Below, in pieces: positions 39,236-45,745 of a stretch of DNA of 64,000 nt (position 1 is the stretch's first letter; every line of letters begins with the position of its first letter). The notes beneath the pieces are model-generated. The model was given only the letters and a program-made list of their open reading frames with translations, did not search any database and was not told the origin of the DNA. The position numbers were made by a program, and so were the translations under genes. The stretch lies in the NCBI GenBank assembly GCA_003576845.1, contig QEVJ01000022.1:1-64000 (forward strand), written 5' to 3'. The stretch comes from Planctomycetota bacterium. GTDB taxonomy: Bacteria > Planctomycetota > Planctomycetia > Pirellulales > PLA5.

Positions 39236-39359
39236 AGAATGCAAAATGCAGAATGAAAAATGAAAAATGAGGAATGCGATGACGAACGCAAGATGACGAC
39301 CGAGCTTGACAGCATTCTGCATTCTTCATTTTGCATTCTTCATTCTGCCTTCTGCATTT
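39236..39359. repeat. AT-rich GAATGCAGAATG hairpin repeat between mcsA and mcsB
   Basis: Units such as GCAGAATGAAAAATGAAAAA on the left are mirrored by GCATTCTTCATTTTGCATTC on the right, with a 35-base spacer. It resembles the elements near 49440 and 60150. Confidence 0.88.
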
Positions 39360-39422
39360 CCTCCGCGCCTCTGCTCCTTTGCGGTTGAAATTCGCCAGGA
39401 ATTGGAAAGGAACGAGTCCGCC

Positions 39423-40508
39423 GTGAATCTGCCGCTCGAAGAACTGGTGCATCGTTCGGGCGAGTGGCTGCGCGGCACCGGTCCGGAGTCGGACATCGTC
39501 ATCAGCAGCCGTATCCGCCTCGCCCGCAACCTCGCGGATTTTCCGTTCATCCGCCGCGCGAGCGATGCCGACAAGGCGCAGATCGAACGCATTCTCCGCG
39601 AGACGACCGCCAAGCTCGACGATGTCGGCGATCTCGCGTACTACGACGTGCAGGGCCTCGAAGGACTCGATCGCCAGTTTCTCGTCGAGCGGCACCTCAT
39701 CAGTCGCGAACACGCCGACAACGAAGGCGCCCGCGGCGTGGCGATCGACCATAGCGAGCGCGTCAGCCTGATGGTCAACGAAGAGGACCACTTGCGGATC
39801 CAGGTGATGCACAGCGGGCTCGATCTCGACTCGGCCTGGGCAGAGATCGACCGCGTCGACGACCAAATCGAATCGAAGGTTACGTACGCCTTCCATCCCA
39901 AGCTCGGTTATCTGACGGCCTGCCCCACGAACGTCGGCACGGGCTTGCGCGTGAGCGTCATGCTCCACCTGCCCGCGTTGGTGGTCACGCGGCAGATCGA
40001 AAAGGTCTTCCGCAGCTTGCAGAAGATCAGCCTGGCCGTCCGCGGTCTGTACGGCGAAGGCTCGCAGGCGATGGGCGATTTCTACCAGATATCCAACCAG
40101 CTTACGCTCGGCCGCACCGAAGAGGACCTCGTCAAGCAAGTCGCCGACATCGTGCCCGTGCTGATCGACTACGAGCGTAAAGCCCGCGAGTTTTTGGTGA
40201 AGGAAAGCCACAAAGACCTGCACGACCGCGTGAGCCGGGCGTACGGCATCCTTTGCACGGCGCAGAAGATCAGCAGCGAAGAGACGATGCACCTGCTCTC
40301 CAGCGTCCGCATGGGTGTGAACCTTGGCCTGATCAAGGACGTCGAAATGGCGTCGATCAACCAGTTGTTCATCCACACGCAGCCGGCCCATTTGCAGAAG
40401 CTTCGCGGCATGGAGCTGAGCACGTCGGACCGAAACGTGGAGCGGGCGATGTACCTAAGGCAGATGCTCGCCAAACGCAGCGGCAACGGGGATCCGGCGG
40501 CGAACTAG
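39423..40508 (+). CDS. mcsB: Protein arginine kinase McsB
   Basis: ATP:guanido phosphotransferase-fold kinase that phosphorylates protein arginines to mark substrates for Clp proteolysis; 361 aa. Motifs seen are VISSRIRLARNLADFPF, NEEDHLRIQVMHSG and CPTNVGTGLRVSVMLHLPAL. The GTG start was chosen because it directly precedes the conserved N-terminus (LPLEELVHRSGEWLRG) and has AAAGGA upstream; the frame is open further upstream only through repeat DNA. Confidence 0.95.
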   Translation: MNLPLEELVHRSGEWLRGTGPESDIVISSRIRLARNLADFPFIRRASDADKAQIERILRETTAKLDDVGDLAYYDVQGLEGLDRQFLVERHLISREHADNEGARGVAIDHSERVSLMVNEEDHLRIQVMHSGLDLDSAWAEIDRVDDQIESKVTYAFHPKLGYLTACPTNVGTGLRVSVMLHLPALVVTRQIEKVFRSLQKISLAVRGLYGEGSQAMGDFYQISNQLTLGRTEEDLVKQVADIVPVLIDYERKAREFLVKESHKDLHDRVSRAYGILCTAQKISSEETMHLLSSVRMGVNLGLIKDVEMASINQLFIHTQPAHLQKLRGMELSTSDRNVERAMYLRQMLAKRSGNGDPAAN

Positions 40509-41685: not shown

Positions 41686-42882
41686 ATGATCGTTGTATCC
41701 CGCGAACAGCCCGTGATGGCTGCGATTCGCTCGAAGGTCGAAGCCGGCGAGCGGCTTTCGTTCGAGGATGGGTTGTATTTGTCTCGGCCGGACGTGCCGC
41801 TGGGCGAGGTGGCGGAGCTTGCCAACCTCGTCCGCGAACGGAAGAACGGGAATCTCGCCTTCTACAACATCAATACGCACCTCAACGCGACGAACGTCTG
41901 CGTCTATCGCTGCTCGTTCTGCGCCTTCCGCGCCGATTTGCGGGACGAGCGCGGATATTTGATGTCGGACGAGCAGATCCTCGCCCGCGGGCAAGAGGCG
42001 ATGGATATCGGCGCGACGGAAATGCACATCGTCGGCGGCTTGCACCACCAGATGAAGTACGACTGGTATGTGCATCTCGTGCGGCTGTTGCACGAAGCAT
42101 TTCCGCGGCTGCATCTGAAGGCGTGGACCGCGGTCGAAATCCACTGGTTCGCCCACATGACGAAGAAGCCGTATCGGGCGATTCTCGAAGATATGCTCGC
42201 TGCGGGCTTGGGTTCGATGCCCGGCGGCGGGGCGGAGATTTTTCATCCCGAGGTGCGGCGGCAGATTTGCGAGCACAAGGCCGACGCCACGCCGTGGCTC
42301 GAAATTCATCGCACGGCCCACGAGCTCGGCCTGCGAACGAACGCCACGATGCTCTACGGGCACATCGAGAACGCCTATCACCGCATCGACCATTTGCTGC
42401 GGCTCCGCGAGCTTCAGGATGAGACCGGCGGCTTCCAGACGTTCATCCCGCTCGCTTTCCACCCCGACAACACGCGGCTCGACCACATCAAGAAATCCTC
42501 CGCGCCGACGGACCTGCGGACGATGGCGGTGAGCCGGCTGATGCTCGACAACTTCGACCACGTGAAGGCATATTGGATCATGCTCGGCGTCGAAACGGCG
42601 CAGGTGGCGCTGTCCTACGGCGCGGACGATCTCGACGGAACCGTGCGGCACGAGCTCATCTATCACGACGCGGGAGCGAAAACGCCCGAGGCGCTGTCGG
42701 TCGAGGAAATTCGGCGGCTGATCGTCGAGGCCGGGCGGGAGCCGGTGGAGCGGGATACGCTGTACAACCGCGTGGTGAGGACCGGGGCTGGGGACTGGGG
42801 AATAGGGGTCGGGGGTCAGGGGTCGGGGGTCGGGGAGAATGCGGGGGTCGGGATTCGGGATTCGGGATTCGGGGGCCAGTAG
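41686..42882 (+). CDS. mqnE: Aminofutalosine synthase (radical SAM)
   Basis: First committed radical-SAM step of the futalosine route to menaquinone; 398 aa. The cluster motif CVYRCSFCAF is intact, with HLNATNVC before it and GGLHHQMKYDWY and AWTAVEIHWFAHMTKKP as family motifs. The last 33 residues (about 366-398, RTGAGDWGIGVGGQGSGVGE and on) are glycine-rich and encoded entirely by G-rich genomic repeats, so the native C-terminus has been replaced or extended. No other menaquinone gene is adjacent. Confidence 0.95.
   Translation: MIVVSREQPVMAAIRSKVEAGERLSFEDGLYLSRPDVPLGEVAELANLVRERKNGNLAFYNINTHLNATNVCVYRCSFCAFRADLRDERGYLMSDEQILARGQEAMDIGATEMHIVGGLHHQMKYDWYVHLVRLLHEAFPRLHLKAWTAVEIHWFAHMTKKPYRAILEDMLAAGLGSMPGGGAEIFHPEVRRQICEHKADATPWLEIHRTAHELGLRTNATMLYGHIENAYHRIDHLLRLRELQDETGGFQTFIPLAFHPDNTRLDHIKKSSAPTDLRTMAVSRLMLDNFDHVKAYWIMLGVETAQVALSYGADDLDGTVRHELIYHDAGAKTPEALSVEEIRRLIVEAGREPVERDTLYNRVVRTGAGDWGIGVGGQGSGVGENAGVGIRDSGFGGQ
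42783..42877. repeat. Composite G-rich repeat at the 3' end of mqnE (copy 7)
   Basis: GGGGCTGGGGACT, then GGGGTCGGGGGTCAGGGGTC units, then three GGGATTC heptamers. It has the same module order as the uvrA copies, but here the G-rich strand is the coding strand, giving VGIRDSGFGG instead of PESRIPNP. The stop codon lies just beyond. Confidence 0.9.
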
Positions 42883-43179: not shown

Positions 43180-43357
43180 GCGCGAAGTCAACAGATTCCA
43201 GATCAACGGGATGCCGGCACGCCTCGCTGGTTGGGATTCGACGCTTGGAAACGGGGCATTTTGTCCGTCGGCCGCGAACCAATTGCCGCATGCGTGCGTC
43301 GTGTAGGTGTCGCGCGTGTGAAAACGGCGGTTTTCGTGGGTGCGGCGAGTTTTTCTC

Positions 43358-43386
43358 TTGCCGCGATTGCGGATTGTGAGTTAAAT
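43358..43386 (+). promoter_or_regulatory. Candidate sigma-70 promoter for the structured RNA
   Basis: TTGCCG (43358-43363), a 17-base spacer and TTAAAT (43381-43386). A second, weaker pair with the same TTGCCG and spacing (43436-43441 and 43459-43464, ATAAAT) lies closer to the structured region. The surrounding 300 bases show no convincing gene. Confidence 0.35.
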
Positions 43387-43505
43387 GCAGTTAGACGTAT
43401 CGCGCTTACGCGGCGCGATGGACTAGAGGCCCGATTTGCCGGTCGCTTCTTCTGGCGAATAAATGCCCGGCGTCGGGGAGGTTCTAGTGGAAAGGAGGTG
43501 GTCCT

Positions 43506-43547
43506 TTGAGTTGTATCTGTAAGAGCCAGCGAGGTGGTTGCGGCTGA
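43506..43547 (+). CDS. Possible 13-aa cysteine-rich peptide
   Basis: TTG preceded at seven bases by AGGAGG (43493-43498) opens a frame reading MSCICKSQRGGCG and then TGA. The Shine-Dalgarno lies in the P1 helix of the candidate RNA, so translation could be gated by folding. The peptide may be fortuitous. Confidence 0.2.
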   Translation: MSCICKSQRGGCG

Positions 43548-43649
43548 GGATAGCCGGCGGGCTGCCCAGCCTCGACGCAAGTCGTCCCGGCAGCCACCCA
43601 ACTCGTATGAGGATCACCTAAAAAACGATCCTAACAGCGAGCAACAAAA

Positions 43650-43696
43650 CGGGCCTGGTCACCCTTCGCGGCGGCCAGGCCCGTGCTTTTTTCCCG
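43650..43696 (+). terminator. Intrinsic terminator
   Basis: Stem ACGGGCCTGG / CCAGGCCCGT (10 bp; 43649-43658 and 43675-43684), a 16-base loop and then GCTTTTTTC. It is the only classical Rho-independent terminator noticed in the window. Confidence 0.85.
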
Positions 43697-43911
43697 CATC
43701 GTGGAACTCTCGGCGGCCTTGGGTCGTCTATCTCCACGTGCATCGCGTCGTGCTGCGTTCTCTGCCGCAAGGCGAGCCGGCGACTGGTTCGCCCCGCGAG
43801 TCCCCCGCTTGTCCGCTGCGCTCGCGGTGCGCGCCGGATACGATGTCGACAACATTTCGTGTGCGAAGAACCGCGTTACCCAACCCCGCTCCGATTCGAG
43901 GAATCCCTGCC

Positions 43912-44502
43912 ATGAAAACCGCCTGCCGATCGGTCGTTTTTTCCGCCGCAATCTTGTCCGCCGCCGCGTCGCTCGTTGCGTGCGACAGGCCGACGAATGC
44001 ATCCGCCAATCAAGCCGGCGAGAAGAGGCCGACCGCTGCCGACCTCGCCGTCCATAAGCCGCTTGCGGCGCTGATCGCCGAGGCGGACGCGCTGGTCCTG
44101 TACGAAGGCCTGCCGCACCAGCTTTGGGAAAGTGACCTGCTTGCGTCGGAGAAGGCGTCCAAGAAAACGGTCGCGCTGCACGACTATCCATTCTACGCCG
44201 ACGCGATCGCAGCCGACGGCGACGACGCGAAAACGTTGACGGCGATTTTGTCCGACGCCAAGTCGCTCACGCCCTACGCCGGTCCCAAACGCTGCGGCGG
44301 GTTTCATCCCGACTGGTGCCTCGAATGGCAAGCCGGCGGCGAAAAAGTACAATGCCAACTCTGCTTCGGCTGCCAGGAAGTGAAGTTTTTTTCGACCAAG
44401 CATGTGTTGCACGCTGACCTGTCGGCCGCGGCGTCCGAGCGACTCGCATCGGTCCTCAAGGATTACCGCGAGCAACGGCCGCAGCGCGCTCGCGAGCAAT
44501 GA
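43912..44502 (+). CDS. Cysteine-rich lipoprotein
   Basis: Lipoprotein of 196 aa and unknown function, with lipobox ASLVAC. The mature C-terminal half has a conserved-looking cysteine cluster (CGGFHPDWCLEW, CQLCFGCQEVKFF), possibly for metal or disulfides. The frame is open for 378 bases upstream across the terminator, so the ATG at the signal peptide was chosen. The gene lies 215 bases after the structured RNA and could be controlled by it. Confidence 0.8.
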   Translation: MKTACRSVVFSAAILSAAASLVACDRPTNASANQAGEKRPTAADLAVHKPLAALIAEADALVLYEGLPHQLWESDLLASEKASKKTVALHDYPFYADAIAADGDDAKTLTAILSDAKSLTPYAGPKRCGGFHPDWCLEWQAGGEKVQCQLCFGCQEVKFFSTKHVLHADLSAAASERLASVLKDYREQRPQRAREQ

Positions 44503-44612: not shown

Positions 44613-45611
44613 TTACTCCTCGTGGTCTTCGGCGGCGGTGGGGTTTGCCGGGGGACCTTTGTAGAGCTTGCGGCTGAGATTCTGCTGGAACGGCGTCCAG
44701 GCGCTGTCGACGTTCGGGTCGTCGCGCATCAGTTGGTCGAAGCTGTGCAATTTCGCGTCCAGGTCGTCGATGTGCGAGAGCGCGACCGCTTCGAGCGTCA
44801 TCGGCAACTTTGGGCTGCCGAATTCGTAGCTGCCGTGGTGGCTGAGGATCATGTGCTTGATCCGCAGCACCGTTTCATGGGGAATGGGTTGACCCGAGAG
44901 GCGTTCGGCCTCGCGGACCTTGGCGTCGAGGATGCCCGCGCCCATGACGAGGTGGCCGATCAACTGCCCTTCGTCGGTATAGCCGAAATCGCGCTCGTAG
45001 CTTAGCTCGTCGATCTTGCCGACGTCGTGCAGAAAGACTCCGACGCGGAGCACTTCGGCATCGACCTGCGGGTACAGGTCGGCGATGCGGCGAGTGACTT
45101 CGAGCATGTTCACCACGTGTTCGAGCAATCCGCCGCGATAGGCGTGGTGATTCTTCACCGCGGCGGGCGCCGCGGTGAACTTCCGCATGAACGCTTCGTC
45201 GAGCAGGAAGCAATCGACGAGATTCCGCAAATGCGGATTGCGGACCTCGCGGAGCAGCTCGGTGAGGCGGACGGTGAGCTGGTCGATCTGCCGATTGCTG
45301 ACGCGGAGGAAATCTTCCTCGTTGACCGTCGACGGCGCGACCCGGTCGATCGACGTGACGATGAGCTGCATGTCGCCGTTGTAAAGCTGGGCCGTGCCCG
45401 TGACGCTGACGTAATCCCCGTTGTCGAAGTTGCGGTACACCTGATCGTTGGCGTTCCACATCATGCCGTTGATCGAGCCGCTGCGATCGACGAGTTGGAC
45501 CTGCAAGTACAGATTCCCGTTGCGGTTGGGACGCAATTGCTTGTTGCAGGCCAGGAAGATCTGATCGACCTGTTCCTTGGGGGCGAGTTGACTGACGAAC
45601 CGACGAGACAT
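44613..45611 (-). CDS. YhaM-like 3'-5' exoribonuclease (OB fold + HD domain)
   Basis: Predicted exoribonuclease of 332 aa. An OB-type nucleic-acid-binding domain (YLQVQLVDRSGSINGMMWNA through MQLIVTSIDRV) is followed by an HD domain (HHAYRGGLLEHVVNMLEV, then VFLHDVGKIDEL and ILSHHGSYEFGSP). This matches the YhaM family of RNA-processing enzymes. The ATG encoding MSRRFVSQ follows AAAGGG; the TTG codon just upstream is less likely. It is convergent with the lipoprotein gene. Confidence 0.92.
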   Translation of the reverse strand: MSRRFVSQLAPKEQVDQIFLACNKQLRPNRNGNLYLQVQLVDRSGSINGMMWNANDQVYRNFDNGDYVSVTGTAQLYNGDMQLIVTSIDRVAPSTVNEEDFLRVSNRQIDQLTVRLTELLREVRNPHLRNLVDCFLLDEAFMRKFTAAPAAVKNHHAYRGGLLEHVVNMLEVTRRIADLYPQVDAEVLRVGVFLHDVGKIDELSYERDFGYTDEGQLIGHLVMGAGILDAKVREAERLSGQPIPHETVLRIKHMILSHHGSYEFGSPKLPMTLEAVALSHIDDLDAKLHSFDQLMRDDPNVDSAWTPFQQNLSRKLYKGPPANPTAAEDHEE

Positions 45612-45745
45612 CAAAACCCTTTCGGCGAACGGACGGCGATGCGTATTGGCGCGTGCTAAGGGAGCCAGAGTTTACGGTCGAATTCCCCGGGCGGCAAGTT
45701 AGCGGCTTGTGAGCCTCGGTGCAGAGTCGCGGCACACGCGCGCTT

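Follow-up and report, generated by a model that had tools for sequence, protein, structure and literature searches.

A conserved, apparently stand-alone structured RNA of Planctomycetota with a mini-ORF behind an extended Shine-Dalgarno sequence: a candidate translation-gated RNA

Dual-function small RNAs, such as SgrS/SgrT, SR1/SR1P and RNAIII/hld, and leader-peptide attenuators are the nearest described kinds to the planctomycete RNA reported here. The dual-function RNAs, which include VcdRP, reported to encode 29 residues (PMC8672173), resemble it in being stand-alone structured RNAs with a terminator and a short translated ORF; however, the planctomycete ORF is far shorter (10-18 codons), has a full-length Shine-Dalgarno sequence (SD) and sits within the core fold, flanked by two hairpins whose loops appear complementary, and the RNA ranges over a phylum. 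Attenuators of the trpL type share with it a short ORF that has its end in one of a pair of helices excluding each other and is followed by an intrinsic terminator, but no regulated gene follows the planctomycete RNA, which is where this comparison fails, and its helices P2 and P3 form no part of the terminator. GACG tetraloops take part in gammaretroviral RNA dimerisation and packaging (PMC516450), and those hairpins are like ours in being able to pair through CG/CG, whereas the contact which we propose is intramolecular and bacterial and, in the type found in the window's own class, would comprise three pairs with a C-G/U-A exchange. The Rhodopirellula-1 motif was listed as a candidate structured RNA of Planctomycetes and Proteobacteria, with a table entry that classes it as cis-regulatory and gives no Rfam accession (Weinberg 2010, PMC2864571). 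A cis gene is lacking for our RNA, and 150 Pseudomonadota genomes yielded no strong match to it; this comparison is with the table description alone, and the two are possibly identical. tmRNA and 6S RNA are also widespread single-copy structured RNAs, and tmRNA too has a short ORF. However, tmRNA has a tRNA-like domain and a tag ORF lacking an SD, which does not describe this locus with its strong SD, and in the same genome (G000) tmRNA is a separate locus (C119:76374-76732) with no match here. 6S identity was likewise rejected, with no RF00013 match at the locus or elsewhere in that genome, from which 6S may be absent or in which it may be too diverged for the Rfam model.

The window, by which we mean the whole stretch of DNA that was analysed, comprises 64,000 nucleotides of a Planctomycetota assembly (contig QEVJ01000022.1), and the features of the RNA all lie on its plus strand. 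A preliminary description had placed a structured RNA which it could match to no family, with its own terminator, at 43471-43697, resting it on three helices which are all present in the sequence: P1, AGGTGGTCCT/AGGATCACCT (43496-43505/43610-43619), GAGTTG/CAACTC (43508-43513/43599-43604) and P2, GGTGGTTGC/GCAGCCACC (43533-43541/43590-43598). These exceed chance, since positions 43491-43625 folded at -63.6 kcal/mol compared with -43.7 +/- 3.9 kcal/mol for shuffled sequences (z -5.1; 0/200 shuffles equal), and the whole of the earlier interval also folded better than its shuffles (z -4.1). Rfam 15 at the gathering threshold gave no matches in the window or in 20 homologous loci, and down to E 10 the window gave only chance-level matches; no description of the RNA was found in the literature searched, chiefly open-access papers. 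We conclude that the structure is genuine and conserved and belongs to none of the Rfam 15 families. The earlier interval does hold a structured RNA, with its 5' limit set about 80 nt too late: in an extended alignment the conserved unit begins at ~43393 and is ~300 nt long (43393-43692), and the added 5' part contains two further conserved structures, HP1 and P0. From 5' to 3' the order is promoter-like site, HP1, P0, SD, ORF, P3, P2 and terminator.

The blastn comparison of the earlier interval with 58 genomes of the same order returned partial matches in many families, mainly to ~43480-43567. Covariance models, a route which the preliminary description had proposed, were built from 17 sequences (R1) and from 50 diverse sequences (R2). 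R1 matched 119/392 Planctomycetota genomes and R2 189/394, nearly always in single copy, and compensatory changes were found in HP1, P0, P2 and P3. Within the window's class R2 matched 89/100 genomes (34/40 in the window's order and 55/60 in the remainder of the class), and the remaining matches fell in other Planctomycetota classes. The best score among 150 Pseudomonadota control genomes was 27.1 bits, several of these matches covering short stretches, and all of the 150 planctomycete matches listed scored at least 33.9 bits; matches scoring between these two values are unreliable taken singly. R2 found nothing in approximately half of the planctomycete genomes sampled, for which absence and divergence are both possible. 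A strict pattern found no copy in viral contigs, and the sole match of an exact 18-mer in genome contigs was rejected as an unrelated gammaproteobacterial site, from a genome with no R2 match. Taken across genomes, these matches indicate a single-copy RNA gene spread over much of Planctomycetota, in several classes.

A promoter-like site at 43358-43386 (TTGCCG at 43358-43363, 17 nt, TTAAAT at 43381-43386) predicts a transcription start near 43393. The window's own -10 is weak; relatives have TTGYCR-16/17-AANAAT-like sites 8-14 nt 5' of HP1, and sigma-70-like sites scoring at least 8/12 precede HP1 in 24/61 homologues, compared with 4.0 expected. At the 3' end is the strong intrinsic terminator reported earlier (43649-43692; ACGGGCCTGG...CCAGGCCCGT then T6, 14 pairs), which is missed by a scan restricted to loops of 8 nt or less and is otherwise the strongest in the window, the other matches having poorer stems or T tracts. 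Terminator-like hairpins lie 40-240 nt from the stop codon in 46/64 homologues (1.2 expected). Another terminator-like hairpin (43308-43347; 17 pairs then AGTTTTTCT) lies just 5' of the promoter-like site and, belonging to the previous unit, would set the RNA gene apart from the gene upstream. An all-vs-all comparison of flanking ORFs at 41 loci found no neighbour family in common beyond small groups of relatives. Promoter-like sites, terminators and the lack of a conserved neighbour together argue for an independent transcription unit, transcription itself being something that we infer.

Because no flanking gene is conserved, we regard the locus as a stand-alone RNA gene and not as the leader of the gene at 43912. 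The preliminary description had offered both a trans-acting RNA and a leader of that gene; a stand-alone, possibly trans-acting RNA fits, and the leader is rejected on synteny, with neighbouring genes varying among families and a terminator following in 46/64 homologues. The more general possibility of a downstream-gene leader or attenuator, in which a leader peptide would stall the ribosome and the terminator would be regulated, could draw on a leader-peptide-like ORF, mutually exclusive helices and a terminator, which are the classic parts of such a system, but with no conserved downstream gene among the 41 loci and no Pfam match for the 43912 gene we consider it very unlikely.

The next gene downstream (43912-44499) encodes a predicted secreted or lipoprotein-like protein. 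It is followed on the minus strand (44613-45614) by a gene for an OB-fold and HD-domain protein with a YhaM-like exoribonuclease organisation. Upstream, 41686-42882 encodes a radical SAM protein with a CofH/MqnC C-terminal region, similar to those of the menaquinone (futalosine) pathway, and the 3' end of this gene runs into low-complexity repeats (GSGVGENAGVGIRDSGFGGQ). Further upstream, 39339-40505 encodes an ATP:guanido phosphotransferase (McsB-like) with an uncertain start codon, the 5' region of which overlaps a repeat stretch (CILHFAFFILPSAF) that is probably a REP-like element.

The most constrained part of the RNA contains an extended SD of 14 nt (AAAGGAGGTGGTCC, 43491-43504), which pairs, with one G-U, with GGATCACCTCCTTT, the sequence in which 16S rRNA usually ends. 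Within it AGGAGGTG is invariant in 50 aligned homologues sampled from the phylum, and loci extracted from the order have the near-invariant SD AAGGAGGTG. No second site like this long SD occurs in the assembly, the 16S 3' end of which also escapes the pattern used; complete genomes show that pattern at a few sites besides the RNA, presumably including 16S copies. An abundant RNA which sequesters or buffers small subunits through its full-length SD, with the ORF merely permitting recycling, would account for the invariance of AGGAGGTG across the phylum sample and for a motif, AAAGGAGGTG(A/G)TCC, which matches the whole 16S tail and has no second site in the assembly. We nevertheless think such a 30S sponge improbable: a single gene copy would face thousands of ribosomes, and HP1-P3, P2 and a stop codon placed just before P3 would have no role in a pure sponge.

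The SD is followed by a short ORF at 43506-43547 (TTG start, 13 codons, TGA stop; peptide MSCICKSQRGGCG), which the preliminary description had missed. Homologous ORFs have 10-18 codons, begin with TTG, GTG or ATG, as a rule 12 nt from where GGAGG begins, and most often end in SQRGGxx before the stop codon. An ORF between the SD and P3 is present in 60/61 homologues compared with 6.6 expected, a count that is inflated because the homologue set was partly selected for having the ORF. Among 65 thinned homologues the start codons GTG, TTG and ATG were used 40, 15 and 10 times and the stop codons TAG, TGA and TAA 25, 20 and 20 times. TGT codons occurred 52 times in frame versus 6 and 11 times in the other frames, with Cys mostly at residue 2 to 7, AGT codons occurred 44 times in frame versus 5 and 1, and indels within the ORF were mostly multiples of 3 nt. 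With three start codons, three stops and in-frame Cys and Ser codons in use, the comparison indicates a sequence constrained as an ORF, and on the same comparative basis the ORF appears to be translated. The +2 frame carries a stop codon in 55/65 homologues, mostly a TAG inside TGTAGT-like stretches. A GGUGGCU-like stretch is kept in the RNA and is read as RGG, RWL or KGL depending on the clade; because clades read it differently, being translated would seem to matter more than the exact peptide.

The strongest alternative to a translation-gated RNA is that the locus is a very small mRNA, with a 10-18-residue Cys/Ser/Arg/Gly-rich peptide as its product and RNA structure setting the amount made. 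The ORF is kept in nearly all homologues, its TGT and AGT codons are strongly in frame even though Cys itself ranges over residue 2 to 7, and SQRGG is kept across most of the window's class. Against this, the peptides diverge strongly among classes (MSCICKSQRGGCG, MCSHNQRWLA, MTNCDCTKGLHA and MCHRPRRPLT), the reading frame across the conserved GGUGG stretch varies, 20/65 homologues have no Cys, and a 13-codon message needs less 5' and 3' structure than is present here. We judge the peptide explanation unlikely, at a level that still calls for it to be taken seriously.

The ORF is flanked by hairpins whose stems vary in concert. HP1 (43398-43420; TATCGCGCT[TACGC]GGCGCGATG), the 5' hairpin, varies in its base pairs, with several alternatives at each position of the stem among 31 class members; partner swapping gave 0/2000 permutations as good, a control which is biased because the hairpins were picked by energy. 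For the long stem P0 (43422-43488; ACTAGA at 43422-43427 with TCTAGT at 43483-43488, CCCGA/TCGGG and an inner GCCGG/CCGGC), which ends just 5' of the SD, the windows were not chosen by energy and again 0/2000 permutations were as good; variants such as ACAAG/CTTGT (L007) and ACTGAAG/CTTTAGT (L015) illustrate the covariation. Directly after the stop codon lies P3 (43552-43563; AGCC[GGCG]GGCT), with a G(A/G)CG tetraloop, 91% of cells paired and a covariation of 0.577 versus 0.303 when shuffled (0/500 as high; slid controls at most 0.21).

We propose that the CGC of the HP1 loop pairs with the P3 loop. In the type found in the window's own class, where the HP1 loop is 5-9 nt long and contains the triplet, CGC occurs with a P3 loop GCG (n = 36) and CGU with ACG (n = 16), giving 52 Watson-Crick triplets in which the third pair exchanges between C-G and U-A, with one clear exception (L009). 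In most other classes both hairpins end in a GACG-type loop, so that the contact would shrink to two pairs, CG/CG. On the RNA's own tree the loops exchange several times, with three independent pairs on supported branches, and the test falls short of significance because there are too few supported independent changes. The two loops look complementary, and a kissing contact of 2-3 base pairs between them is likely. A conventional antisense sRNA which acts through an exposed loop, with the ORF secondary, would be consistent with the promoter-like site, the terminator and the single copy, and small ORFs are reported to be common among sRNAs (PMC5521070), but the most constrained bases belong to the SD, the ORF start and stop, P3 and P2 and leave no free seed, and the HP1 and P3 loops appear to be satisfied by one another. 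We regard this explanation as having little chance of being correct.

P2 pairs the last codons of the ORF with a strand downstream, enclosing the stop codon and P3. It covaries (partner swap 0/2000 permutations, windows not chosen by energy) and exceeded 95% of shuffles in 18/25 homologues of other classes versus 10/35 of the window's class; in the 17-sequence alignment its covariation was equalled by 8/500 shuffles. An alternative hairpin, GGCTGCC/GGCAGCC (43561-43594; ~43560-43567 with 43588-43595), was equalled in covariation by 0/500 shuffles, a result limited to the window's order, for which 17 sequences were aligned. It uses the 3' strand of P2 and part of P3 and so excludes both. Mutually exclusive helices with a common strand, overlapping the ORF, are predicted here as in an attenuator, and comparison points to this pair around the ORF end and P3 as the conserved switch-like feature.

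The preliminary description had put its switch elsewhere, in P1 and the strand GGATCACCT, which was read as the core of the 16S 3' end, with AGGAGG in the partner strand and GATCC (43627-43631) able to displace the helix. All three motifs are present. P1 joins the 3' half of the SD to an anti-SD strand, and GGATCACC, the complement of the second half of the SD, occurs in similar form in 12/36 class members compared with 0.19 expected and in 0/28 other homologues, whereas pairing of the SD with downstream sequence is overall little above chance. P1 is therefore real but a local elaboration, the 16S-like strand has no meaning of its own beyond complementing the SD of the ORF, and SD sequestration was rejected as a conserved core. 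The GATCC displacement does not hold as it was proposed: the 3' hairpin CTCG+AGGATC/GATCCT+CGAG (43602-43641), visible directly in the sequence, would tie up the anti-SD strand and so leave the SD free, and a comparable hairpin of at least 5 pairs was found in 5/36 class members. Of the three original helices P2 covaries, P1 is kept in part of the class, and GAGTTG/CAACTC was rejected as a core helix, being absent in the congener L002. The GNRA hairpin noted earlier lies in a small insert, confined among the aligned homologues to the window's genus (L001, L002), and was rejected as a core element.

We tentatively favour, while stopping short of calling it probable, a translation-gated and probably trans-acting stand-alone RNA, its fold built around a mini-ORF with a near-maximal SD. 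Comparison of the homologues supports the conserved unit, its helices, the ORF and the stand-alone context; from these we infer translation, closed and open shapes, ribosome gating and action in trans. Without a ribosome the RNA would be closed, with P2 pairing the last ORF codons to the 3' part and P3 lying just 3' of the stop codon with its loop kissing that of HP1; in the window's lineage P1 would additionally cover half of the SD. Once captured by the entire tail of its 16S rRNA, a 30S subunit would translate as far as the stop codon, which would melt P2 and P3 and free the kissing contact; the GGCAGCC strand so released would, in the window's order, be taken up by the GGCUGCC/GGCAGCC hairpin. 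The RNA probably changes shape when a ribosome reads the mini-ORF, since melting of P2 and P3 would give it one translated and one untranslated shape. The main signal would be this shape rather than the peptide, and it would report the availability of competent 30S subunits or the capacity for initiation, although any such sensing of 30S subunits is conjectural. Its in-frame Cys and S/G/R-rich composition point to a possible role for the peptide, against a reading in terms of shape only. A bolder form of the translation-gated reading makes the RNA a phylum-wide sensor of ribosome state, with translation of the mini-ORF by 30S subunits with an intact 16S tail as its sole input, release of the HP1-P3 contact as its output and action in trans; this we think doubtful. 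To our knowledge, no free-standing translation sensor of such a kind has been described.

The relation of this RNA to the Rhodopirellula-1 motif, considered here from its table description, bears on any claim of first discovery (PMC2864571). The RNA occurs across several classes of Planctomycetota and outside all curated families. Single-copy RNAs conserved over a whole phylum form a small group, usually with central roles (tmRNA, RNase P, SRP and 6S), and the Planctomycetota have an unusual cell biology and little RNA annotation. The combination of a maximal ribosome-binding site with a mini-ORF between apparently kissing hairpins leads to a testable proposal, namely that these bacteria may possess a free-standing RNA which reads translation itself.
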